Source: Methylococcales bacterium
Lineage (GTDB): Bacteria > Pseudomonadota > Gammaproteobacteria > Methylococcales > Methylomonadaceae
DNA: 34,999 nucleotides
Direction: 5' to 3'
NCBI GenBank assembly: GCA_026398935.1
Contig: JAPLRW010000146.1
Span: forward strand, 1 to 34,999
Part shown: piece by piece, positions 7,635-28,637 of the stretch
How positions within the stretch are numbered: the stretch's first letter is position 1
How the letters are laid out: each line of letters begins with the position of its first letter
Program-made: the position numbers and the translations under genes
The notes under the pieces: model-generated
What the model was told of the DNA's origin: nothing
The model's input: the letters and a program-made list of their open reading frames with translations, nothing else
The model's database searches: none

Positions 7635-8021
7635 CTAAGACTGTAAACTGTCTAAATAATGCTCAAAATTGACATCATCTTCAAGCACCGCTTGCGTTGT
7701 CCAGTTAGGAACAAAATAGCCAATTCCTTTTTTCTGCCATTTATCTTTATGCATTCTGTAACTTAATTCTAGCAACTTATCAAATAATAGGCTCTGAACA
7801 TCAACGTACACAGGGTAATGTAAGTAATCATTAGTGTTCATTACATCATCCTCCCCCCAAAAATTATTTCCAACATATTGATACAGCAGTTGGATATTTT
7901 TAACCAGCCCCTCGCTGGTATCCGTATTCATTAGCTGCTCGGCAAGATCCAAAACACAATTATGCTGGATGTCAACAATGTCCATAGCCAATGCGTAAAA
8001 ACCACCACCTCTATATTGCAT
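7635..8021 (-). CDS. Hemerythrin-fold protein with most iron ligands lost
   Basis: No exact family was recognised, but the spacing follows bacteriohemerythrin: VDIQHNCVLDLAEQLM, then NNFWGEDDVM, then YPVY, then NWTTQAVLEDD and FEHYL. In the canonical protein five His and two carboxylates bind two irons. Here H20, E57 and D116 remain. The other four His positions are N53, V75, L79 and A111, so a normal di-iron, oxygen-binding site is unlikely. The start at 8021 gives 128 residues. It overlaps the upstream stop as TGATG and has GGAG 7 bases upstream. An ATG at 8042 (135 residues) is the alternative but lacks a Shine-Dalgarno sequence. The fold is inferred from the memorised motif pattern, and the function is unknown. 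Confidence 0.6.
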   Translation of the reverse strand: MQYRGGGFYALAMDIVDIQHNCVLDLAEQLMNTDTSEGLVKNIQLLYQYVGNNFWGEDDVMNTNDYLHYPVYVDVQSLLFDKLLELSYRMHKDKWQKKGIGYFVPNWTTQAVLEDDVNFEHYLDSLQS

Positions 8022-8266
8022 CAATTGACTCCACACTGACATTTACAAGCAGTCGCATTACTTAATTGATAACCAAACACGTTTTGCCTATCACTATTTA
8101 ATGCCTTACGTAGCACACACTGTCGATTAAGCACATCCAAGCCAATAATATTCGCCACAATAACGAAAGAGATACCCTCTGTGCGCAGAAGAAAATCTCT
8201 CACCCATTTAAGTAAACTAAGTAACACGTAAAACAGCATTTTTCCCTGGGGAGCTAAACTTGACAC
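8021..8266 (-). CDS. Small Cys-rich membrane-like protein coupled to the hemerythrin-like gene
   Basis: This 81-residue product is not recognised. The start is a GTG at 8266, with a perfect AGGAGG five bases upstream, rather than the ATG codons further upstream. Residues 10-27 (MLFYVLLSLLKWVRDFLL) and 32-46 are hydrophobic or amphipathic, suggesting one or two membrane-associated helices. Cys50 and a C-terminal cluster A-C-K-C-Q-C (Cys74, 76, 78) could bind metal or form disulfides. The stop TGA shares its A with the ATG of the next gene, the usual sign of translational coupling. The strong ribosome binding site and the coupling are the main evidence that it is real. It has no functional assignment. 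Confidence 0.6.
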   Translation of the reverse strand: MSSLAPQGKMLFYVLLSLLKWVRDFLLRTEGISFVIVANIIGLDVLNRQCVLRKALNSDRQNVFGYQLSNATACKCQCGVN

Positions 8267-9044: not shown

Positions 9045-9134
9045 ACCCTAAGAAGCCTCTCATTAAGTTGTTTGAAAAACGTTTAAAATACGCATTCACC
9101 ACTGTTTTATCCCTTATCACGCGGCAGAATCACA

Positions 9135-9539
9135 CTAATTATACTCAGACTTATGCCCATGCAAACGGATTAACAACGTAGCCTCATCTCTGCTTAAGCC
9201 AAAATTTTGCATTAATTCAGCAACATTGGCTCCACTTTGAACTTTTTGAATGGCATTACGATAAGGCTGCTCAGCAGACTCCGCTGGTTTGATCTCAGCC
9301 GCTTTGGTTTGAAGCTCTTTTAGTATCACCTCGTATGCCGTCAAACGCTCATCTATAGTGATAGCTGCCGAGCATAATCCCGTAATATCCCTGTCATTTC
9401 TACTCGCGTAACCACTAAGTACCTGCAATTCTTTTTTAAACTTAAAATGCTCACGAATAAGCCAAATAAACAAAACGATAACCAGTAATGCAAAAGCACT
9501 ACAGATACCCCAAATAAGAGACTCATTAAACCAATTCAT
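9135..9539 (-). CDS. DUF2802 membrane protein of the chemotaxis cluster
   Basis: This 134-residue protein has one N-terminal transmembrane helix (about residues 6-26, SLIWGICSAFALLVIVLFIW), a basic and helical linker with coiled-coil character, and a C-terminal DUF2802 domain (RNAIQKVQSGANVAELMQNF, then GLSRDEATLLIRLHG) that looks like a small helix-turn-helix. A DUF2802 gene commonly ends the cheW end of the Pseudomonas-type chemotaxis cluster. Its function is unknown. The start is set at MNWFNES (9539), inside the end of the upstream 56-residue gene, with 14 bases of overlap in another frame. A longer in-frame reading to 9626 lies within that gene and is not preferred. Confidence 0.85.
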   Translation of the reverse strand: MNWFNESLIWGICSAFALLVIVLFIWLIREHFKFKKELQVLSGYASRNDRDITGLCSAAITIDERLTAYEVILKELQTKAAEIKPAESAEQPYRNAIQKVQSGANVAELMQNFGLSRDEATLLIRLHGHKSEYN

Positions 9540-9696
9540 CGATGTGTTGTACCGCTTGCTCAGTGGATTGCTCAGACCCTTTAGGGCTAGCGTGTTGTTG
9601 CGGTTGTTTATGCGCGGATTCATCATCAGCTCTCGCCTTCACTTTATCGGGCTTCTTGATGGCAATTAACGGTGTTATAGAATGTATAGAATCCAC
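9526..9696 (-). CDS. 56-residue proline/glutamine-rich protein of the chemotaxis cluster
   Basis: The product begins (GTG start) MDSIHSITPLIAIKKPDKV and ends EQAVQHIDELV. It is hydrophilic, low in complexity and probably unstructured except for a short C-terminal helix. Support is positional and translational: AGGGGG lies at 9706-9701, four bases before the GTG, and its end overlaps the DUF2802 start by 14 bases in another frame. The Pseudomonas-type cluster also carries a short hypothetical gene ending in an H-I-D-E-like motif near this position (from memory). The function is unknown. It is below the length cut-off many gene callers and ORF lists use. Confidence 0.7.
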   Translation of the reverse strand: MDSIHSITPLIAIKKPDKVKARADDESAHKQPQQHASPKGSEQSTEQAVQHIDELV

Positions 9697-9907
9697 TATT
9701 CCCCCTCTTTACCCCTTGGGTATCTTTCGTAAAATAACGGCTTATGCCCAAATACTGAGCAACACCATTTCAAGGTAATTAGCCATCATAAGACGCATCA
9801 CCAACCGAATCCACAATAGTCTATACAGAGCATAGTCACGACATAACCCACCTACTGTAACGATTTTTTACCGAAAATAGCTACCTAATTACTGCACAAA
9901 AACCGTC

Positions 9908-10390
9908 TTAAAACATATCCATTTCAGCTTTTTCATCATCATTTAGAAACTTGTTAAGGTCTACTAAAATTAATAATTCATTGTCTCGACCAGTAACGCC
10001 TTGAATATATTTAGAGGTTTCATCATTCCCAACATTGGGAGCCGTCTCTATTTCAGACGCACGCATCTCGACCACTTCAGCAACACTATCAACCAAAATA
10101 CCAATAATATGCGCTTCTGTTTCAATAATCACAATACGCGAAGCGTCATCCGTTTCTATTGACATTAAACCAAAACGATTACGTGTATCAATAACCGTTA
10201 CGACATTGCCACGTAGGTTAATAATACCTAACACATAGGAAGGAGCACCGGGTACTGGCGCTATTTCCGTTACGCGCAACACTTCCTGAACTTGCATAAC
10301 ATTAATTCCATACTTCTCATCACCGAGACGAAAAGTTACCCATTGCATTATCGGATCACTTTGTTTTATTTCCACGTTATTTATTCCCAC
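9908..10390 (-). CDS. cheW: Chemotaxis coupling protein CheW
   Basis: CheW is a cytoplasmic adaptor that links chemoreceptors to the kinase CheA in arrays. The single CheW-type SH3-like domain fills the 160 residues: MQWVTFRLGDEKYGINVMQV, APVPGAPSYVLGIINLRG, a central VVTVIDTRNRFGL and the late GRDNELLILVDLNKFL. The length is typical. The start shown is a GTG at 10390 with no good ribosome binding site. A GTG at 10375 (starting MEIKQSDP) is preceded by GGGA at a longer distance and is an alternative. It lies 111 bases after the CheW-like ParP-type gene, the largest gap in this part of the cluster. Confidence 0.95.
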   Translation of the reverse strand: MGINNVEIKQSDPIMQWVTFRLGDEKYGINVMQVQEVLRVTEIAPVPGAPSYVLGIINLRGNVVTVIDTRNRFGLMSIETDDASRIVIIETEAHIIGILVDSVAEVVEMRASEIETAPNVGNDETSKYIQGVTGRDNELLILVDLNKFLNDDEKAEMDMF

Positions 10391-10501
10391 ATCAATACTT
10401 GAAAAACAGAAAAACTCACGCCATCAACGACTGCCTACGCAACATACTGACGTAACCACTCCTGAAGTGTAGCCCCAAACCACACAATGTCGACTTTTAG
10501 T

Positions 10502-11200
10502 TCATTTTCTTCCTGGCACTAATTGATTAATATCAATCACTGCCGCTAATTCATTAATCACTGTACCAATTAACCAGGGGCGCAAGGTTCTTAAGGTGCG
10601 CCAACGAATTTTTTCCGGTGATAATTTACCAATAGATAAAATATCATCGCAAGCCAGTCCCCACTTCTCGTCTGCGCTGATTAACAAATAGGCAAAAGGC
10701 CGCTCATTCAAATCACGCAAAGACCCTTTGGCTTTTCCAAAAATCAGCTGCCCACTGTCTAAGATACTAATTTTTTTACCGTGATCGTCTAATAAGCCTA
10801 AAAACCAAGATGGCTGAGCAGGTATTTTAGTTGGCTTGCGATTAAACTTAAGCGTTCGTGATAACGTAATCAGCGGGGTAGCCATTATTAAATGGTCAAC
10901 TTTAAAAAATAAAGCCTGAAACTCAGCACGCGACCAATCTGGCATAAGGGCTAATGGCCGAACAACGCCCGCCTCAGCCAGCTTAATACCTAAAACATCT
11001 GATTCTAACGGTACCTTTTGAAATTCCGAGGATAAAGGTAATAAAGCTAGCGGTGCAGCGGCCGCTTCTGGCGTTATGCCTACTGAAACAGTTTCATCCA
11101 AGGGAGTATCAGGAATTTCTTCCAATAGCGCCCTTAAATAAACATCTAAAGCCAATTCTTGCTGTAATGCCTGCTGTATTGGCTTAAAAGAGCTGTTCAC
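10502..11200 (-). CDS. CheW-like array-positioning protein (ParP type)
   Basis: This 232-residue protein has a variable acidic/Ala-rich N-terminal half and a C-terminal CheW-like domain (LITLSRTLKFNRKPTKIP, SWFLGLLDDHGKKISILD, FAYLLISADEKWGLACDDIL, NELAAVIDINQL). In this position, next to a ParA-like ATPase and cheW, homologues in Vibrio are ParP, which ties chemotaxis arrays to the pole by binding both ParC and CheA. The function is inferred from domain and neighbourhood. It starts with GTG, overlapping the TGA of the ATPase gene by four bases (GTGA), so the two are translationally coupled. The equivalent Pseudomonas gene is usually annotated only as a CheW-domain protein. Confidence 0.85.
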   Translation of the reverse strand: MNSSFKPIQQALQQELALDVYLRALLEEIPDTPLDETVSVGITPEAAAAPLALLPLSSEFQKVPLESDVLGIKLAEAGVVRPLALMPDWSRAEFQALFFKVDHLIMATPLITLSRTLKFNRKPTKIPAQPSWFLGLLDDHGKKISILDSGQLIFGKAKGSLRDLNERPFAYLLISADEKWGLACDDILSIGKLSPEKIRWRTLRTLRPWLIGTVINELAAVIDINQLVPGRK

Positions 11201-12003
11201 GATCCTGATCCAGATTGTTTGCTTTTAACGCGAGGTGCTTGCAATAACACTTCCAATAGTTCCGCATAGGCTTCCGATGCTTTACTGGTTGGTACATACA
11301 AGGGCCCTGGAATCCCTAATCGACTGGCCTCTCTGAACTTAGTGTCTATCGGAATAACCGATCCCCACATATAATCAGGGTATTGCTTATTTAAACTCTG
11401 TAAATTTTCGTGTGCTTCCTTGGTGCGCTTATCAAACATCGTCGGCACAATAATATAATTGGGGGGATGTTTATGCGCGTTAAATACCATTTTCAGCGTA
11501 CGCAACATGCGATCCAAGCCTTGCAAAGCTAAAAACTCAGCTAATACCGGCAAAATTAATCGCTCGCACGCCGCCAGAGCATTGATCATTAAGATACCCA
11601 AAACAGGGGGACTGTCAATAATCACATAATCATATTGATCTTCTATTTTCTTTAAGGCATTGGCGATGACTAGCCCCATGCCATTCATTGAGGCCACCTG
11701 CCTATCCAGTGTCGCTAACGCTGTTGAAGCCGGTAAAATGGACAAATTTTCAATACCTGTTGCAACAATATAAGATTCTAAGGACGCATCTTTACGCTTT
11801 AAGCTGGCATCATGAAATAAATTATAAACACTGCCTTCAATACCATCTGGATTCATCTTAAAGTAACTGGTTAACGCACCATGTGAATCCAAGTCAACCA
11901 ATAACGTACGATAGCCCCACGCAGACAACAACCCCCCTAATGCAACAACAGTAGTGGTTTTACCAACGCCACCTTTTTGATTTGAAACAGCCCAGATTTT
12001 CAT
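11197..12003 (-). CDS. ParA-like ATPase for chemotaxis array positioning (ParC type)
   Basis: This 268-residue deviant-Walker ATPase starts MKIWAVSNQKGGVGKTTTVV, with the signature Lys10 and Lys15, and has the switch region TLLVDLDSHGALTSYF and Walker B YVIIDSPPVLG. There is no N-terminal DNA-binding extension as in plasmid ParA. In this locus, homologues (ParC in Vibrio) form a polar gradient that places and segregates chemotaxis arrays. The role is inferred from gene order. The start is set at ATG 12003, where the ATPase fold begins. The open frame extends upstream to 12051 but would run into motD. It is followed with a 4-base overlap by the CheW-like partner gene. It should not be confused with topoisomerase ParC. 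Confidence 0.88.
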   Translation of the reverse strand: MKIWAVSNQKGGVGKTTTVVALGGLLSAWGYRTLLVDLDSHGALTSYFKMNPDGIEGSVYNLFHDASLKRKDASLESYIVATGIENLSILPASTALATLDRQVASMNGMGLVIANALKKIEDQYDYVIIDSPPVLGILMINALAACERLILPVLAEFLALQGLDRMLRTLKMVFNAHKHPPNYIIVPTMFDKRTKEAHENLQSLNKQYPDYMWGSVIPIDTKFREASRLGIPGPLYVPTSKASEAYAELLEVLLQAPRVKSKQSGSGS

Positions 12004-12010
12004 AACCAGC

Positions 12011-12901
12011 CTACTTAAGTGAAGGGATACTTGCTGTATTAGGTGCGGCAAAAGGTGCCGTTACCCCTGAATTAATCCGGAGCGCACGTTCCTTATCATC
12101 CATACCATACCGCGAAAACGCTTGCGACATGACCAACAACACCACGCGCCTATTTTTAAATCGACCCGCCTCCGTTGCATTATCCGCAATTTGATGAAAT
12201 TCACCATAACCTACTGCCGCCAAGCGCTCTGGGCTGATTTTATCTTTAATCAACTCTCTCACCACGCTTGTCGCCCTAGCAGAGGATAAATCCCAGTTAG
12301 AAGGGAACTTTACCGTATTAATGGGTACATTATCTGAATACCCTTCAACATTAATCATATTAGGAAAACCACTAACGACTTCGGCCACCTTTTTTAACAT
12401 CGGATACGCCTCGTTAGACACTTCCGACTCACCACTAAGGAACAGCAGTTCACTATTCATTTCTAATTCAACCCAAAAATCGTGTTGCTTGACCGCTACC
12501 TGATTTTGATCCATAAAAGGTTTTAACGCTGCTTGAAATTGAATAGATACATTATTCAGTAACTGACGTTCCTTAATAATCTCTTCACTCAAGGCGGCAC
12601 TTGCATCCTTCGGCACAACGGGCATATCCAACTTAATAGGCTGTATCGTTACGCTAGCCAATGTATCTAATCCAATAACAGAAGAGCTGCCCGAAGGTAT
12701 CGCATTTTTATCTGCGACAGGCGCAAAAGCCGCCTCTATTGCCGTCGATAACACGCGGTATTTCCCCTCATTCACGGATGACATGGAATACATAACCACA
12801 AAAAAAGCAAACAATAACGTAATAAAATCCGCGTAAGATACCATCCAGCGCTCGTGCTGCTCCGTTTCTTCATGATGTCGTTGTCTACGCCGTCTAGCCA
12901 T
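12011..12901 (-). CDS. motD: Flagellar stator protein MotD (MotB family)
   Basis: This 296-residue inner-membrane stator subunit anchors the proton channel to peptidoglycan. A basic, charged N-terminus (MARRRRQRHHEETEQHERW) leads into one transmembrane helix, WMVSYADFITLLFAFFVVMY, with the ion-binding Asp at residue 25. A plug/linker region and a C-terminal OmpA-like peptidoglycan-binding domain follow (VEGYSDNVPI, NWDLSSARATSVVREL, GYGEFHQIADN, NRRVVLLVM). Family length and the neighbouring motC identify it as the second Pseudomonas stator type, MotC/MotD, rather than MotA/MotB. It lies 21 bases after motC, with no strong ribosome binding site, suggesting coupled translation. Confidence 0.94.
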   Translation of the reverse strand: MARRRRQRHHEETEQHERWMVSYADFITLLFAFFVVMYSMSSVNEGKYRVLSTAIEAAFAPVADKNAIPSGSSSVIGLDTLASVTIQPIKLDMPVVPKDASAALSEEIIKERQLLNNVSIQFQAALKPFMDQNQVAVKQHDFWVELEMNSELLFLSGESEVSNEAYPMLKKVAEVVSGFPNMINVEGYSDNVPINTVKFPSNWDLSSARATSVVRELIKDKISPERLAAVGYGEFHQIADNATEAGRFKNRRVVLLVMSQAFSRYGMDDKERALRINSGVTAPFAAPNTASIPSLK

Positions 12902-12922: not shown

Positions 12923-13675
12923 TTAATGCGGCGGTTCGGTTATAAAGCCGGATAATTTTAATTCGATATTACGGGAATTTTCACCTGCCGCAATAGCAAC
13001 AAGTCCTTCCATCATCATTTCCCGTGCTTGTGTTTGCGCATACACTTGACTCTTTAATTGCTGAGCAATGGGTAAAAATATTAAGTTTGCAGAGGCAACA
13101 CCATAAATAGTTGCCACAAACGCCGTAGCAATGCCTTCACCTAACAATGCAGGCTCAGAAAGGTTTTGCATGACGTGAATCAAACCCATTACTGCACCAA
13201 TAATGCCAATCGTAGGTGCATAGCCGCCCATTGACTCGTACACTTTGGCTATCTGTAAATCGGCATACTCTTTCGCAAATAACTCAACCTCTAACGTGTC
13301 TCGAATAATGGCCGGTTCCGTGCCATCTACCAACAGTTGCAGCCCTTTTTTAACCAAGCTGTCTTCTTCCCGAGCAATCATTTTCTCCAAATCTAAAAAG
13401 CCGTTTTTACGCGCAATACCACTCCAGCGCACAATTTTGTCAATTTCAGCTTTTAGGTGTATTTTATGCGGCAAAAAAACTCGAATTAACACCTTCAAAC
13501 TTTTAAAAAAAACAGCGGGTGGAAATTGCAAACAAACGGCGCCCAATGTTCCCCCAAACACAATGACAAACGCAGAACCGTTAAGCAGTGAACCAATATG
13601 TCCACCATCCAGCTTATTACCGATTAGAACAGCACCAATACCAACGAGCAGTCCAAAGATACTTAACAGATTCAT
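12923..13675 (-). CDS. motC: Flagellar stator protein MotC (MotA family)
   Basis: This 250-residue MotA/TolQ/ExbB-family membrane protein has four transmembrane helices: two at the N-terminus (LLSIFGLLVGIGAVLIG and LNGSAFVIVFGGTLGAVCLQF) and two near residues 150-205 (GGYAPTIGIIGAVMGLIHVM and ATAFVATIYGVASANLIFLP). The cytoplasmic loop between them carries the charged residues that contact FliG. With MotD it forms a stator that turns ion flow into torque. The ATG shares a base with the cheB stop (TGATG), indicating coupling. The ion is not decided by sequence here. MotCD complexes in Pseudomonas use protons. Confidence 0.94.
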   Translation of the reverse strand: MNLLSIFGLLVGIGAVLIGNKLDGGHIGSLLNGSAFVIVFGGTLGAVCLQFPPAVFFKSLKVLIRVFLPHKIHLKAEIDKIVRWSGIARKNGFLDLEKMIAREEDSLVKKGLQLLVDGTEPAIIRDTLEVELFAKEYADLQIAKVYESMGGYAPTIGIIGAVMGLIHVMQNLSEPALLGEGIATAFVATIYGVASANLIFLPIAQQLKSQVYAQTQAREMMMEGLVAIAAGENSRNIELKLSGFITEPPH

Positions 13676-14835
13676 CAGCCTATTTTCGCAAATTCAGTTG
13701 CTATGTCATCCAAAGCCAAGATTTTATCGGCCAATTTCGCCTCTATAATCGCCCTTGGCATACCATAAATAGTGCAACTTTCTTCATTTTGAGCCCACAC
13801 CATGGATCCCGCTTGCTTAAGCTTTACGGCACCCATTTTCCCATCGCTACCCATTCCGGTTAAAATCACACTTAACGATGACTCTCCAAAATGCTGTGCA
13901 ACTGACGTTAATGTAATATCCGCACAAGGCGCATAAATATCGACCGCCGATTTAGCCCGCAACTCAACGCAATGCTGCCCGGCAATGGTTTTAATTTCCA
14001 TTTGCAGTCCGCCCGGTGCCAATAAGGCCACCCCCGCTTCTAATACGTCACCTTGCTGAGCTTCTTTAACCTGAATAGAACACAGGCCATTTAAGCGTTC
14101 CGCAAAGCTATGCGTAAAGTTAGACGGCATATGTTGAATAACAATCACCGGTACAGGACAACTGGCCGGCAATTGCGATAATATTTTTTGCAGTGCAACC
14201 GGCCCTCCCGTTGAAGCAACCACCACTAACAACCGCATGCGCGATAAGGAATAACGCTTACTCGTAATAGCATCACTCGGCTGCAATGCATGCCGCGGAA
14301 TCGCCGCTGATGGATAAGGGCGTATTTTATGCTGCAACGTAGCGGTAGCTGGCACAGCTGACCCATAGGAAGATGAAAAGTGCTGCTGTACCACGGAAGC
14401 CTGCGAGGGAGATGAAAACTGCCGCAAGACAGCCGGAGCAGTCGATGCCACCAAGCGTATCCGCTGCCGCAAACACCGTTTAGCTTTTTCAAGATTACCA
14501 TCAATCTCTCCAAGCTGCTTAGGCAAGAAATCAATAGCCCCCGCATTCAAGGCATCCAATGTTGCTTTCGCGCCGATGTGTGTCATCGCAGAAAACATTA
14601 ATATCGGAATCGGCGTTTTCGCCATAATGCGTTTAACCGCCTCAATACCATCCATAACCGGCATTTCGACATCCATTGTAATAACATCGGGTACAAGGAG
14701 AGCCGCCTTAACAACGGCATCTTGACCATTATGTGCAACGCCGACCACTAGAAAGCCAGGCTCTTCATCTAAAATCCGCTTAATTAATTTGCAAATAAAC
14801 ACCGAGTCATCGACGATTAATACCTTAATGACCAT
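13675..14835 (-). CDS. cheB: Chemotaxis protein-glutamate methylesterase CheB
   Basis: CheB removes methyl esters from (and deamidates) chemoreceptors, giving adaptation. The 386-residue protein has an N-terminal receiver domain (VLIVDDS at 5-11, phospho-Asp 55 in ITMDVEMP, then SAMTH and the Lys of FLPKQ). A low-complexity linker rich in S, Q and P follows. The C-terminal methylesterase domain has the catalytic Ser in ASTGGP (about residue 205), a His in VIQHMP, and the Asp in LTGMGSDG. The start MVIKVLIVDDS at 14835 is chosen to match the family. A frame extends to 14862 and would overlap cheA by 11 bases. No cheR is present in the window, so the opposing methyltransferase must be elsewhere. 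Confidence 0.94.
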   Translation of the reverse strand: MVIKVLIVDDSVFICKLIKRILDEEPGFLVVGVAHNGQDAVVKAALLVPDVITMDVEMPVMDGIEAVKRIMAKTPIPILMFSAMTHIGAKATLDALNAGAIDFLPKQLGEIDGNLEKAKRCLRQRIRLVASTAPAVLRQFSSPSQASVVQQHFSSSYGSAVPATATLQHKIRPYPSAAIPRHALQPSDAITSKRYSLSRMRLLVVVASTGGPVALQKILSQLPASCPVPVIVIQHMPSNFTHSFAERLNGLCSIQVKEAQQGDVLEAGVALLAPGGLQMEIKTIAGQHCVELRAKSAVDIYAPCADITLTSVAQHFGESSLSVILTGMGSDGKMGAVKLKQAGSMVWAQNEESCTIYGMPRAIIEAKLADKILALDDIATEFAKIG

Positions 14836-14851
14836 ACCAGTGCGTACCTCA

Positions 14852-17146
14852 TCAACTGGCATACCGATGCATCAATCCTGGCACATCCAAAATAAGCGCA
14901 ATTTTTCCATCGCCAGTAATAGTCGCACCAGATAGGCCGTCTAATCCATGTAACTTAGCACCTAATGCTTTAATAACCACTTCTTCTTGTCCAATTAACT
15001 GATCCACAACAAAACCCACTTGACGTCCACCAGCATTGACCACCACCACATGCCCCATCCGTTTTTTTTGTGTCACATAGCTACAATCATTAATTAACCA
15101 TTCACTAAGAAAAAATAACGGCAATGCTTTTCGCCTGACCATAACGACTAGCTGCCCATCGACCACATTGGTATTGCTTAAATCTAAATCCAATATTTCT
15201 AAAACACTCGCCAAGGGCAACGCAAACGCTTGCTCACCCAGCTTAACCATCAGTGTTGGCATAATCGCCAGCGTCAGAGGGACTTTAATAATAATCGTAC
15301 TACCAATTCCCTCTTTGGAATCGACTTCCACCGTACCATTCATTTGATTAATACGGGTTTTAACCACATCCATGCCAACGCCACGCCCCGAAACATCTGA
15401 GATTTCAGTTTTGGTGGAAAATCCGGGCATAAAAATTAAGTTAAAGCATTCTTTGTTATCGAGTCTTGCGGCAGAATCCTCATCCATTAAGCCTTTTTCC
15501 ACTACTTTTGCGCGCAAGACACTGGCATTCATCCCTTTGCCGTCATCTTTAATGGACAACTCAATATGATCGCCTTCTTGTGAGGCTTTTAAAATCACCA
15601 CACCTTCTCTAGGCTTACCTGCCGCCTCGCGCTCGGCGGGTGTTTCAATACCGTGATCAACAGCGTTACGCACTAAATGCACCAAGGGATCTGCTAACGC
15701 TTCCACCAGATTTTTATCTAAATCGGTTTCTTCACCGACTAATTCCAAGCGAATTTCTTTATTTAAACTACGGGCTAAGTCCCTGACCACACGCGGAAAA
15801 CGACCAAATACTTTTTTAATCGGTTGCATTCTGGTTTTCATTACGGCCAATTGCAAATCAGCCGTTACAATATCCAGATTGGCCATCGTCTTACCCATCT
15901 GTTCACTGACCTCCATGTTGGCTTTTAAGGTCTGGAATCGGTTACGAACTAACACCAACTCTCCCACCATATTCATGATGTCATCCAGTATTTGCGTGTC
16001 CACACGAACGGTATTTTCAGCTTGATTCCCCGCAGCAGGTTTATTATTATTTTTTTTAGCGGGGCTATCAGTTTCTACTGTTAATTCAGGCGTATGCACT
16101 AGCGCAGGTTCTGCGCGAGGAGATACTTTACTAGGTGATTTTATAACAATTGCTTCCGGTTGCGCAGGTGGTGGCGCACTAATAACCGATTCTTTTTGAC
16201 GAGGAAATATCGTCGATGGCACGATAGCGGGTGATACACTATCCAATACAACTGCCGAAAACTTACCTTTACCGTGTAAATCATCTAACAATGCGTCAAA
16301 TTCATCTTCTGTAATATCATCATTATTACTACTGTTTAGAGCAGTAACAATCGCTGCAGGTACTATTACTACAGGTGCGGGTGTTGGCAACTCTACTGAA
16401 AACTTACCCTTACCGTGTAATTGATCCAATAAATCATCAAACTCTGCTTCACTAATATCATCAGAAGAGTACTCTTCTGTTAACACTTGCGTGTTAGCGG
16501 AAACACTGCCTTTACCATGTAACGCATCCAGCAGCTCATCAAATTCTGCTTCCGAAATGGTATCATCATCCGCACCCACCGTATCGTCATCATCAAAGCT
16601 GGCACTCAGCATCGCTTCAAACTCCCGCTCAACCGCATCGGCTATTTTTGCGGGCGCAAGAATCTCGTGCGAGGCAGGTACAGGAGCGGCCATTGCTGCT
16701 GGTGTAACAATTTCTTGTACGACTGGGGTAGGCAACTGCACAAAACTGTCAGCAGGTTGCGCGGTGGTAAAGGTTTGCAAGCGTTGTAGTAATTCAGCAT
16801 TGGCATGCTCAGGATCTTCCCCAGCGCGTACATTATCAAACATATTATTGACAACATCCAAGACCTCCAAGACGACATCCATGAGATCTTGGGTCACTCT
16901 ACGATCACCTTGCCTTAGGCAATTAAAGACATCTTCTGCTTTATGGCAAATAGCCACCATCGCATCAATGGCTAAAAATCCCGCACCGCCCTTAATGGTG
17001 TGAAAACCACGAAAGATAGCATTCAGTAAATCATAATCTCCCGGCGATTGCTCAAGCTCAACCAGCTGCTCGCCCAGTAACTCAACAATCTCCCCGGCCT
17101 CAACCAGAAAATCTTGCAGGATTTCGTCATCCAAATCAATCGCCAT
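14852..17146 (-). CDS. cheA: Chemotaxis sensor histidine kinase CheA
   Basis: CheA is the kinase of the chemoreceptor array, phosphorylating CheY and CheB. The 764 residues show a P1 Hpt domain (phospho-His49 in FRGFHTIKGGAGF), a long acidic linker, and a P3 dimerisation helix starting VRVDTQILDDIMNMVGEL. The P4 ATPase has an N box with VRNAVDHGIE, DDGKGMN and GRGVGMDVVK. A P5 CheW-like domain follows. No P2 CheY-binding domain is recognisable between P1 and P3. Instead the linker holds three copies of an acidic E-F-D-x-L-L-D-x-L-H-G-K-G motif. GAGGAAAG precedes the ATG. It follows cheZ by 9 bases. Confidence 0.96.
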   Translation of the reverse strand: MAIDLDDEILQDFLVEAGEIVELLGEQLVELEQSPGDYDLLNAIFRGFHTIKGGAGFLAIDAMVAICHKAEDVFNCLRQGDRRVTQDLMDVVLEVLDVVNNMFDNVRAGEDPEHANAELLQRLQTFTTAQPADSFVQLPTPVVQEIVTPAAMAAPVPASHEILAPAKIADAVEREFEAMLSASFDDDDTVGADDDTISEAEFDELLDALHGKGSVSANTQVLTEEYSSDDISEAEFDDLLDQLHGKGKFSVELPTPAPVVIVPAAIVTALNSSNNDDITEDEFDALLDDLHGKGKFSAVVLDSVSPAIVPSTIFPRQKESVISAPPPAQPEAIVIKSPSKVSPRAEPALVHTPELTVETDSPAKKNNNKPAAGNQAENTVRVDTQILDDIMNMVGELVLVRNRFQTLKANMEVSEQMGKTMANLDIVTADLQLAVMKTRMQPIKKVFGRFPRVVRDLARSLNKEIRLELVGEETDLDKNLVEALADPLVHLVRNAVDHGIETPAEREAAGKPREGVVILKASQEGDHIELSIKDDGKGMNASVLRAKVVEKGLMDEDSAARLDNKECFNLIFMPGFSTKTEISDVSGRGVGMDVVKTRINQMNGTVEVDSKEGIGSTIIIKVPLTLAIMPTLMVKLGEQAFALPLASVLEILDLDLSNTNVVDGQLVVMVRRKALPLFFLSEWLINDCSYVTQKKRMGHVVVVNAGGRQVGFVVDQLIGQEEVVIKALGAKLHGLDGLSGATITGDGKIALILDVPGLMHRYAS
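16258..16571 (-). repeat. Three docking-motif-like repeats in the CheA linker
   Basis: Residues about 193-215, 227-249 and 275-296 of CheA repeat the pattern DD-I-(S/T)-E-(A/D)-EFD-(E/D/A)-LLD-x-LHGKG-(K/S)-(F/V)-S, separated by spacers of about 12 and 25 residues rich in P, V and A. Corresponding DNA blocks are at 16500-16571, 16400-16468 and 16258-16325. The repeats are conserved in the motif and diverged in the spacers, which suggests selection on the motif. The core resembles the FliM N-terminus (DEIDALLHG) and the CheZ end (VDDLLSSLGF). Confidence 0.85.
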
Positions 17147-17155
17147 TATCTTTCC

Positions 17156-17878
17156 TCAAAAACCTAAGCTAGATAACAAATCATCAACATCATCCTGACT
17201 GTTTGCCACATCCCCTAATTTATCATCAATACCGGGCACAATTGGCCCCGGCAAATCAATTTTATCAACGGCATGAGCAGGTGATTTCTTAGCGCCCGTT
17301 AGTCGAATTAACCCAACCATACTTTCTTCAAGATCTTGAACAACATCAATAACTTTTCGAATAATTTGCCCAGTAATATCCTGAAAACCTTGCGCCATCA
17401 AAATTTCTGTTAAGCCACTTTGTATAACCGATAAGCCATCGGTTGACGCCTTAAAATGTTGGCTTAACTCACCGCTTAGCGCTTTAAACTCATCATAAGG
17501 CATTTCACGCCCCAAAAAACGCTCCCACTTTTCGGCTAACTGCTTTGCGTGTATGGTTAATTCTTCTGAAATAGGCACTAACGTTTCAACAACCGTTAAG
17601 GTTTGATTAGCGGCTTGCTCCGTCATGGTAATCACGTATTTCAATCGCTCTTTAGCATCAGGAATATCATGCTCAGCAATGGCGGAAATTTTTGAATCTT
17701 CCGCAAAATTAACCATGGTATCGTGCAATTGTCTCGTTAATCGACCAACTTCTTTAAACAGCTGCGACTGATGTAGCTCCGCCAGTTCATCCAGTAATTG
17801 ATCAGAAGCGGCCGCATCGTTTTGCTCTAAAGCCGTAACCAGTTTTTTCGCAATATCCAAATAAATATCATTATTCAT
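17156..17878 (-). CDS. cheZ: Protein phosphatase CheZ
   Basis: CheZ dephosphorylates CheY-P. The 240-residue, mostly helical protein has the central four-helix-bundle segment with the catalytic region ILMAQGFQDITGQIIRKVID (the Gln of QDITGQ is the catalytic type) and the C-terminal CheY-tethering peptide DVDDLLSSLGF after a flexible linker. The length and arrangement match Pseudomonas/Vibrio CheZ. It lies between cheY (18 bases) and cheA (9 bases) in the standard order, so the kinase, target and phosphatase are made from one transcript. Confidence 0.95.
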   Translation of the reverse strand: MNNDIYLDIAKKLVTALEQNDAAASDQLLDELAELHQSQLFKEVGRLTRQLHDTMVNFAEDSKISAIAEHDIPDAKERLKYVITMTEQAANQTLTVVETLVPISEELTIHAKQLAEKWERFLGREMPYDEFKALSGELSQHFKASTDGLSVIQSGLTEILMAQGFQDITGQIIRKVIDVVQDLEESMVGLIRLTGAKKSPAHAVDKIDLPGPIVPGIDDKLGDVANSQDDVDDLLSSLGF

Positions 17879-17896: not shown

Positions 17897-18283
17897 TTAA
17901 CCGTCAATACGCTCAAAAATTTTATCAATTTTTTCTTTTAACGTTGCCGCCGTAAAAGGCTTAATAATATAGCCGTTGACCCCCGCTTGAGCCGCCATAA
18001 TAATTTGTTCCCGCTTCGCTTCCGCCGTCACCATTAATACTGGCATATTCGCCAACTTAGGATCAGCACGAACGGCTTTTAACAAATCCAGACCCGTCAT
18101 GCCAGGCATATTCCAATCGGTGACTAAAAAATCAATGCCACCTGCTTGTAGCTTAGGCAGCGCTGTTTTTCCGTCATCCGCCTCAATGGTATTTGTAAAC
18201 CCAAGATCGCGTAACAAGTTTTTTACAATTCGTCTCATTGTTGAAAAATCATCAACAACAAGAATTTTCATATTCTTATCCAA
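17897..18283 (-). CDS. cheY: Chemotaxis response regulator CheY
   Basis: This 128-residue stand-alone receiver carries the chemotaxis signal from CheA to FliM/FliN at the flagellar switch. It shows [20 protein letters not shown], phospho-Asp56 in VTDWNMPGM, the conserved Thr of VMVTAEA and the Lys of [10 protein letters not shown]. The start is a TTG at 18283 with GGAG seven bases upstream. It gives the N-terminus (M)[11 protein letters not shown], which aligns with E. coli CheY. The internal ATG four codons later has no better signal. A 28-base inverted repeat separates it from fliA. Confidence 0.95.
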
Positions 18284-27659: not shown

Positions 27660-28637
27660 CTACGCTGAATCCTGTGTGATTTTTTCAATAATCTGAACCG
27701 CATAATTACCATCAGAAACCCCCACTTTACCCAAAAAAACAGGAACGCCCTCAGCTTTTACCACGACAGTATCCGTCATTTCAATAGGAATAACGTCACC
27801 TTTTTTAAACTGCATAACATCATTAATCAACATAACCTTCTCAACCAACATGCTATTGAGTGTCACTTTAGAGCGCATCACTTCTTTTTTAAGTGACTCC
27901 TGCCAACGCCCATCGACTTCACCCCGATCACTGCCAACCGCATCCAGCAAATCTCGAATCGGCTCAATCATGGCATAAGGCATAGTAATATTAATATCGC
28001 CGCCACCACCTTCCAACTCCACGCGGATAGTGGAAATAACCACAATCTCCGTCGGACTAACAATATTAGCAAACTGCGGATTCACCTCGGAGCTTAAATA
28101 TTCAAACTCCATATCCATGACGGGTCGCCAAGCTTCACCCAAATCTTTAAAGATCATATTCACCATCAGGCTAATCACGCGCATTTCGGTGGGTGTAAAT
28201 TCTCGCCCTTCTACTTTATTGTAAAATTGACCACCTCCCCCAAAAAAATTATCGACTGCAGTGAACACTAATCGTGGCTCCATCACAATCAAGCCCCGTC
28301 CGCGTAACGGTGCGAAACGAACGATATTTAAATTCGTCGGAACATACAAACTTTGTACGTATTCAGAAAATTTTTGAATTTGAATACCGAAGTTAGACAC
28401 ATCCGCTGTACGCCGTAAAAAATTAAATAAACTGATCCGAAAGTAACGAACAAATCGCTCATTAACCATCTCCAACGTGGGCATTCGCCCACGCACAATC
28501 CGTTCCTGACTATTAAAATCATACGGCCGCGCCGAGGTATCCTCAGGAAAATCAGATTCAACTTCAATATCACCATCATCAACGCCGTGTAACAGCGCGT
28601 CAATTTCGTCTTGCGACAGTAAATCAGCAGTAGACAT
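27660..28637 (-). CDS. fliM: Flagellar motor switch protein FliM
   Basis: FliM is the C-ring protein that binds CheY-P and passes the signal to FliG. The 325-residue protein has the N-terminal CheY-binding peptide LLSQDEIDALLHG (residues 6-18), a CheC-like middle domain with the GGxG motif (FFGGGGQFYNK), and a C-terminal SpoA domain (VTLNSMLVEKVMLINDVMQF, then FLGKVGVSDGNYAVQI). The ATG directly follows the fliL stop (TAAATG) and lacks a Shine-Dalgarno sequence, so it probably depends on translation of fliL. Confidence 0.96.
   Translation of the reverse strand: MSTADLLSQDEIDALLHGVDDGDIEVESDFPEDTSARPYDFNSQERIVRGRMPTLEMVNERFVRYFRISLFNFLRRTADVSNFGIQIQKFSEYVQSLYVPTNLNIVRFAPLRGRGLIVMEPRLVFTAVDNFFGGGGQFYNKVEGREFTPTEMRVISLMVNMIFKDLGEAWRPVMDMEFEYLSSEVNPQFANIVSPTEIVVISTIRVELEGGGGDINITMPYAMIEPIRDLLDAVGSDRGEVDGRWQESLKKEVMRSKVTLNSMLVEKVMLINDVMQFKKGDVIPIEMTDTVVVKAEGVPVFLGKVGVSDGNYAVQIIEKITQDSA

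Follow-up and report, generated by a model that had tools for sequence, protein, structure and literature searches.

A repeated FliM/CheZ-like peptide in the linker of a P2-less CheA, a candidate docking array for CheY

How a CheA kinase captures CheY when it has lost P2, the CheY-binding domain, is a question raised by a chemotaxis cluster of a Methylococcales bacterium. We analysed a stretch of 34,999 nucleotides (contig JAPLRW010000146.1, positions 1 to 34,999; contig 94 of genome G000), hereafter the window, whose minus strand carries fliM and fliN and, further along, flhA, flhF, flhG, fliA, cheY, cheZ, cheA, cheB, motA, motB, parC, parP and cheW. The closest named relatives of its CheA belong to Methylococcales (e.g. 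Methylomonas and Methylomicrobium). The CheA has P1, P3, P4 and P5 and lies in the order cheY-cheZ-cheA-cheB-motAB-parC-parP-cheW together with flagellar genes; we therefore call it F6-type, a term that here denotes similarity and gene order, independently of the published F-class models. In the excerpted text of Berry, Andrianova and Zhulin 2023 (PMC10782961), more than half of CheAs are described as having lost P2 and as having an unstructured region between P1 and P3. The window CheA shares both features with the P2-less classes described there, and that excerpt does not mention a conserved linker repeat.

Domain layout of CheA and the repeats in its linker

The CheA gene and the repeats discussed below are located as follows:
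14852..17146, minus strand: cheA, 764 aa (Pfam and our own P2 profile)
16595..16633, minus strand: weak fourth copy of the repeat, VEREFEAMLSASF, CheA residues 172-184 (sixth among 9389 segments when scanned with the repeat profile)
16508..16561, minus strand: repeat 1, TISEAEFDELLDALHGKG, CheA residues 196-213
16406..16459, minus strand: repeat 2, DISEAEFDDLLDQLHGKG, CheA residues 230-247
16265..16318, minus strand: repeat 3, DITEDEFDALLDDLHGKG, CheA residues 277-294

Pfam places P1 at residues 8-108, P3 at 378-438, P4 at 486-625 and P5 at 632-761, and AlphaFold2 predicts the 270-residue linker between P1 and P3 to be disordered. Pfam alone was rejected as a basis for calling P2 absent, because it also overlooks P2 in the two other CheAs of the host genome (L001 and L003), both of which have P2-like sequence. 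We therefore built a P2 profile from the P2-like segments of such CheAs. This profile matched five CheAs, namely L001, L003 and three others, and none of the 122 motif-bearing CheAs (best score 8 bits); the repeats are absent from L001 and L003. In the window CheA, P2 was found neither by Pfam nor by this profile, and the AlphaFold2 model of the linker contains no folded domain. The original prediction, that this CheA lacks P2, is thus upheld. The linker model instead shows isolated helices of 11-12 residues at the three repeats and one longer, low-confidence helix ahead of them, the rest being disordered. The repeats share with P2 their place between P1 and P3 and a proposed docking of CheY or CheB, and differ from it in being helices within a disordered chain that has no fold.

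The original prediction had also described three copies between P1 and P3, and both their coordinates and their motif proved correct: each copy has 18 residues and follows the pattern I-[ST]-E-x-E-F-D-x-L-L-D-x-L-H-G-K-G. The weak fourth copy had escaped it; this copy occupies the same place as the HG-less copy (DITDxEFExLLDAL) of most relatives. Chance likeness among the repeats was rejected, because three non-overlapping 13-mers have at least 11 of 13 identities, compared with a maximum of 6 in 200 shuffles of the linker. A recent tandem duplication at the DNA level was rejected as well, since any two repeats have 13-15 residues in common, of which 5-7 are encoded by different codons. The repeats are therefore old copies held by selection at the protein level.

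Distribution of the motif among F6-type CheAs

At least one core copy was found in all 132 F6-type CheAs (mostly three or four, range 1-7, with seven in one protein). A strict pattern was present in 88 of the first 89 CheAs compared. Among gammaproteobacterial genomes, the repeat profile (A1) was positive in 137 of the 141 that have an F6-like CheA and in 3 of 228 others. These counts do not represent independent events and are partly circular, because a CheA was called F6-like through its similarity to the window CheA. When a phylum sample of 399 genomes was searched, the motif occurred in 62, all belonging to one listed class, and always in frames that were CheA-sized or represented a CheA cut by a contig end. 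The carriers include Vibrio-like (L171-L175) and Pseudomonas-like (L177) genomes, so named from genome layout and ParP features only, in whose CheA linkers little is conserved besides the repeats.

The consensus of 398 copies is [DE]-I-[TS]-[DE]-x-E-F-[ED]-x-L-L-D-x-[LIM]-H-G, in which E6, F7, L10 and L11 are close to invariant. Two kinds of copy can be distinguished: the first copy lacks HG, and the later ones are of the HG type. In family f56 (L106 and L114), only the core T-D-x-E-F-E-x-L-L, the part common to FliM, is kept and L-H-G is lost; these linkers contain TD[DE]EFExLL two or three times, with DxLHG replaced by NQRD or QMRE, and a segment L-P-E-x-x-D-P-D, itself repeated, ahead of each core. 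A CheA frame of 1073 aa (L117, positions 9050-12268, minus strand) has at least six copies, most of which read EFENLLDELQG, with Gln for His.

A survey of P2 absence against motif presence had been proposed together with the original prediction, and we carried it out on 132 CheAs. With the strict pattern, 122 had the motif only, five P2 only, none both and five neither; among these CheAs, the motif and P2 are mutually exclusive. As for the five with neither, L116 begins inside the array, L094 has repeats with Asp at the cap, L132 has degenerate copies, and L130 and L131 are other types of CheA.

Likeness to FliM and CheZ peptides and the CheY face

The N-terminus of FliM in the flagellar motor and the C-terminus of the phosphatase CheZ are peptides that hold CheY. 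The corresponding features of the window are:
28584..28616, minus strand: FliM N-terminal peptide SQDEIDALLHG, residues 8-18
17159..17200, minus strand: CheZ C-terminal tail SQDDVDDLLSSLGF, residues 227-240
17897..18283, minus strand: cheY, the proposed ligand, with a conserved peptide-binding face (Pfam, PDB relatives and residue counts)
13675..14862, minus strand: cheB (receiver and methylesterase), a possible second ligand (Pfam)

Over the core, neither peptide needs a gap to align with S/T-E-x-E-F-D-x-L-L-D-x-L-H-G. When the 9389 segments of the window proteins were scanned with a profile made only from the repeats of other species, the repeats took the top three ranks, the FliM N-terminus was 5th and the CheZ tail 12th. 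The resemblance of the repeat cores to the two peptides, which the original prediction had pointed out, was thus confirmed in register and in rank. In other reading frames, 698,073 residues in total, the core pattern [ST]xx[DE][FILV][DE]xLL had six matches, one of them apparently in a FliM; at this rate (8.6 per million residues), about 0.002 copies would be expected in the linker compared with the three seen. The pattern was defined after the sequences had been seen, and these odds are therefore only a rough guide. The repeats and the FliM/CheZ peptides have in common [ST]-x-x-[DE]-hydrophobic-[DE]-x-L-L in the same register and the form of a short acidic amphipathic helix within a flexible chain. 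They differ in that the CheA repeats lie in a kinase linker, occur in two to four copies, have Phe for Ile/Val and a longer tail (D-x-L-H-G-K-G), and are candidate CheY ligands by their sequence.

Judged at the sequence level, this resemblance is partly generic to N-capped amphipathic helices; the capped-helix pattern also occurs in an unrelated protein, DNA ligase A (ISDAEFDELL). Weak to moderate matches to SHOCT (PF09851) were obtained at the repeats in 26 proteins (best 2e-10). A SHOCT identity was rejected as generic helix-cap likeness, the spacing to the LL pair being different, and SHOCT annotation of F6 CheA linkers is likely to be misleading. A PDB search with the linker or the motif returned no relevant relative. 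Elsewhere in the window, a protein of 135 aa (7635-8042, minus strand; no Pfam match, hemerythrin-like by eye) has a tail, DDVNFEHYLDSLQS, that recalls the CheZ C-terminus.

The CheY of the window is closely related to CheYs whose structures are in the PDB, the E. coli protein among them. Its residues I95, Y106, F111, L116 and K119 are invariant in 107 of 107 F6 relatives, and K91, R/K92 and K/R122 are kept in nearly all of these. Such a hydrophobic and basic face is consistent with the binding of acidic, hydrophobic repeats; its conservation argues no further, because FliM alone would preserve the face. We also modelled CheY with the repeats by AlphaFold2, using chains in which stop codons were read as glycine (cheY, cheZ and cheA share a frame in the window). 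For the window chain, helices were predicted at all three repeats with pLDDT of about 54-67, and the CheZ tail, our positive control, remained below 50. In a second chain (L010, where cheY and cheA share one frame and cheZ does not), two repeats were helical with pLDDT of about 50. Neither the repeats nor the CheZ-tail control were docked confidently on CheY in these models (alignment depth 11-18, pTM 0.29-0.34).

The lack of predicted docking, common to repeats and control, could also be expected if the helices bind another universal component (P1, P4 or P5 of CheA itself, CheB alone, CheW or a receptor) and thereby tune kinase activity or array packing. CheB, CheW and CheA are, like CheY, present in all motif-bearing clusters. 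However, this explanation, which we consider rather unlikely, leaves unexplained both why the repeats match two known CheY ligands in register and why the motif and P2 are mutually exclusive.

ParP, ParC and the proposed docking of CheY

The neighbouring genes suggest a further candidate partner:
10502..11200, minus strand: parP orthologue with a CheW-like AIF domain (Pfam and sequence comparison)
11197..12051, minus strand: parC-like ParA ATPase (Pfam)

CheA of Vibrio binds ParP via its LID, which was reported only alongside ParC/ParP (PMC5706961) and has been placed between P2 and P3 (PMC7534058). The repeats might accordingly be a LID that holds the AIF domain of ParP and ties CheA to the polar ParC anchor, in which case their likeness to FliM and CheZ would be generic. 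The linker region is the same, parP and parC both lie in the window, and the window ParP retains a Trp-Arg pair where Vibrio ParP has its CheA-binding Trp (PMC5706961 for the Trp). Moreover, the motif and ParP occur together in 118 of 127 ParP-positive genomes, and in the Vibrio-like CheAs, where no P2 was seen, the linker holds three repeats and no other recognisable domain. In the same Vibrio-like CheAs, the third repeat is followed by a conserved stretch, G-x-G-P-[ST]-x-E-E-L-x-x-A-T, which may be the part of the LID specific to ParP and as such would weaken the case for the repeats in that role.

The motif also occurs without ParP and ParC. There were 22 motif-positive genomes without a ParP match at 1e-6, including some with diverged ParPs (L099, L102 and L107, probably also L103 and L111) or short contigs. 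In ten near-complete genomes with the motif (G001, G022, G026, G111, G154, G170, G172, G192, G297 and G327), the search for ParP gave only CheW-level scores, and an inventory of CheW domains was made for six of them. Full-length repeats are retained in eight of the ten, and some ParP-less genomes with the motif also lack ParC or CheZ. In G022 and G170, for example, the cluster contains none of parC, parP and cheZ, and SDAEFEALLDRLHGKG is intact. Where the cluster is without these three genes (L095 and L104), the motif persists and the components left are CheY, CheB, CheW, MotAB and CheA. In two other near-complete genomes of this set (G111 and G327; loci L098 and L113), ParC is directly followed by CheW, and no ParP was found. 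The motif thus does not strictly track ParP/ParC, as the original prediction had considered it might, and ParP binding therefore cannot be its only role. We regard the LID as the sole identity of the repeats as unlikely, and where ParP occurs, it may still use the motif.

The array could also be shared, some copies binding CheY or CheB and others (or the HG-K-G tail) binding ParP or CheZ, all within one motif family. Two kinds of copy and a copy number of 1-7 would fit such a division. However, copies of the HG type are retained where ParP or CheZ is missing, and among the loci read neither kind of copy follows the presence of ParP. We regard this division of labour as quite improbable.

The reading we prefer, to which we give about an even chance, is that the array is a multivalent tether of CheY, and perhaps of CheB, in place of P2. 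It takes its start from the observed array, its conservation, the absence of P2, the register match and the independence from ParP; from these we infer binding to CheY and, with it, a strength, a stoichiometry, a preference for CheY or CheY-P and an effect on phosphotransfer. F6-type CheA would have, instead of P2, a disordered P1-P3 linker with two to four short, FliM/CheZ-type amphipathic helices, each of which would probably bind CheY weakly at its alpha4-beta5-alpha5 face, and possibly also the receiver of CheB. Many such sites, counted per chain, over the two chains of a dimer and over the many dimers of an array, would concentrate CheY beside P1 and so replace P2.

Besides the low confidence of the predicted helices and the partly generic pattern, two points count against this tether. 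FliM-type peptides favour CheY-P, whereas P2 releases CheY-P, so that repeats with the preference of FliM would retain the product; this preference may be altered in the repeats by their longer tail and by Phe in place of Ile, or the array may act as a buffer of CheY-P. The second concerns genome G228, where a frame of 99 aa between fliA and motA (L183, positions 9182-9538, minus strand) corresponds to the repeat segment alone of the CheA of relatives. There, cheY-cheZ-cheA-cheB are gone, the genome has no P3 and no chemotaxis CheY, and fliM contains an in-frame stop. This frame may be either a fossil or a retained array; a functional array would have a partner other than CheY in this genome.

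Loss of P2 and the ParP-binding LID are already known; in open-access papers, we found no description of the repeat array. CheY capture by P2-less CheAs, which make up more than half of CheAs according to the same excerpt of PMC10782961, lacks an explanation, to which the array would offer a class-wide and testable answer. We tentatively extend the proposal, with somewhat less confidence than for the window itself, to the gammaproteobacterial F6 class as a whole, Vibrio-like and Pseudomonas-like members included: CheY would be recruited by a peptide array rather than by P2, and P2 and array docking would be mutually exclusive alternatives. Vibrio and Pseudomonas, both well-studied polar swimmers, would then be among the bacteria it covers. 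Ortega et al., arguing from P1-P2 of CheA, found that the P2-facing CheY residues 92, 94 and 103 were altered on the move from F6 to F7 CheA (PMC7184735). Such changes would be expected if F6 CheA contacted this face of CheY in another way. As F6 CheA is without P2, replacement of a peptide array by P2 would fit them and, if the proposal is true, would give a reason for them. Kinase, phosphatase and motor would in that case compete for one face of CheY through a single kind of short motif.
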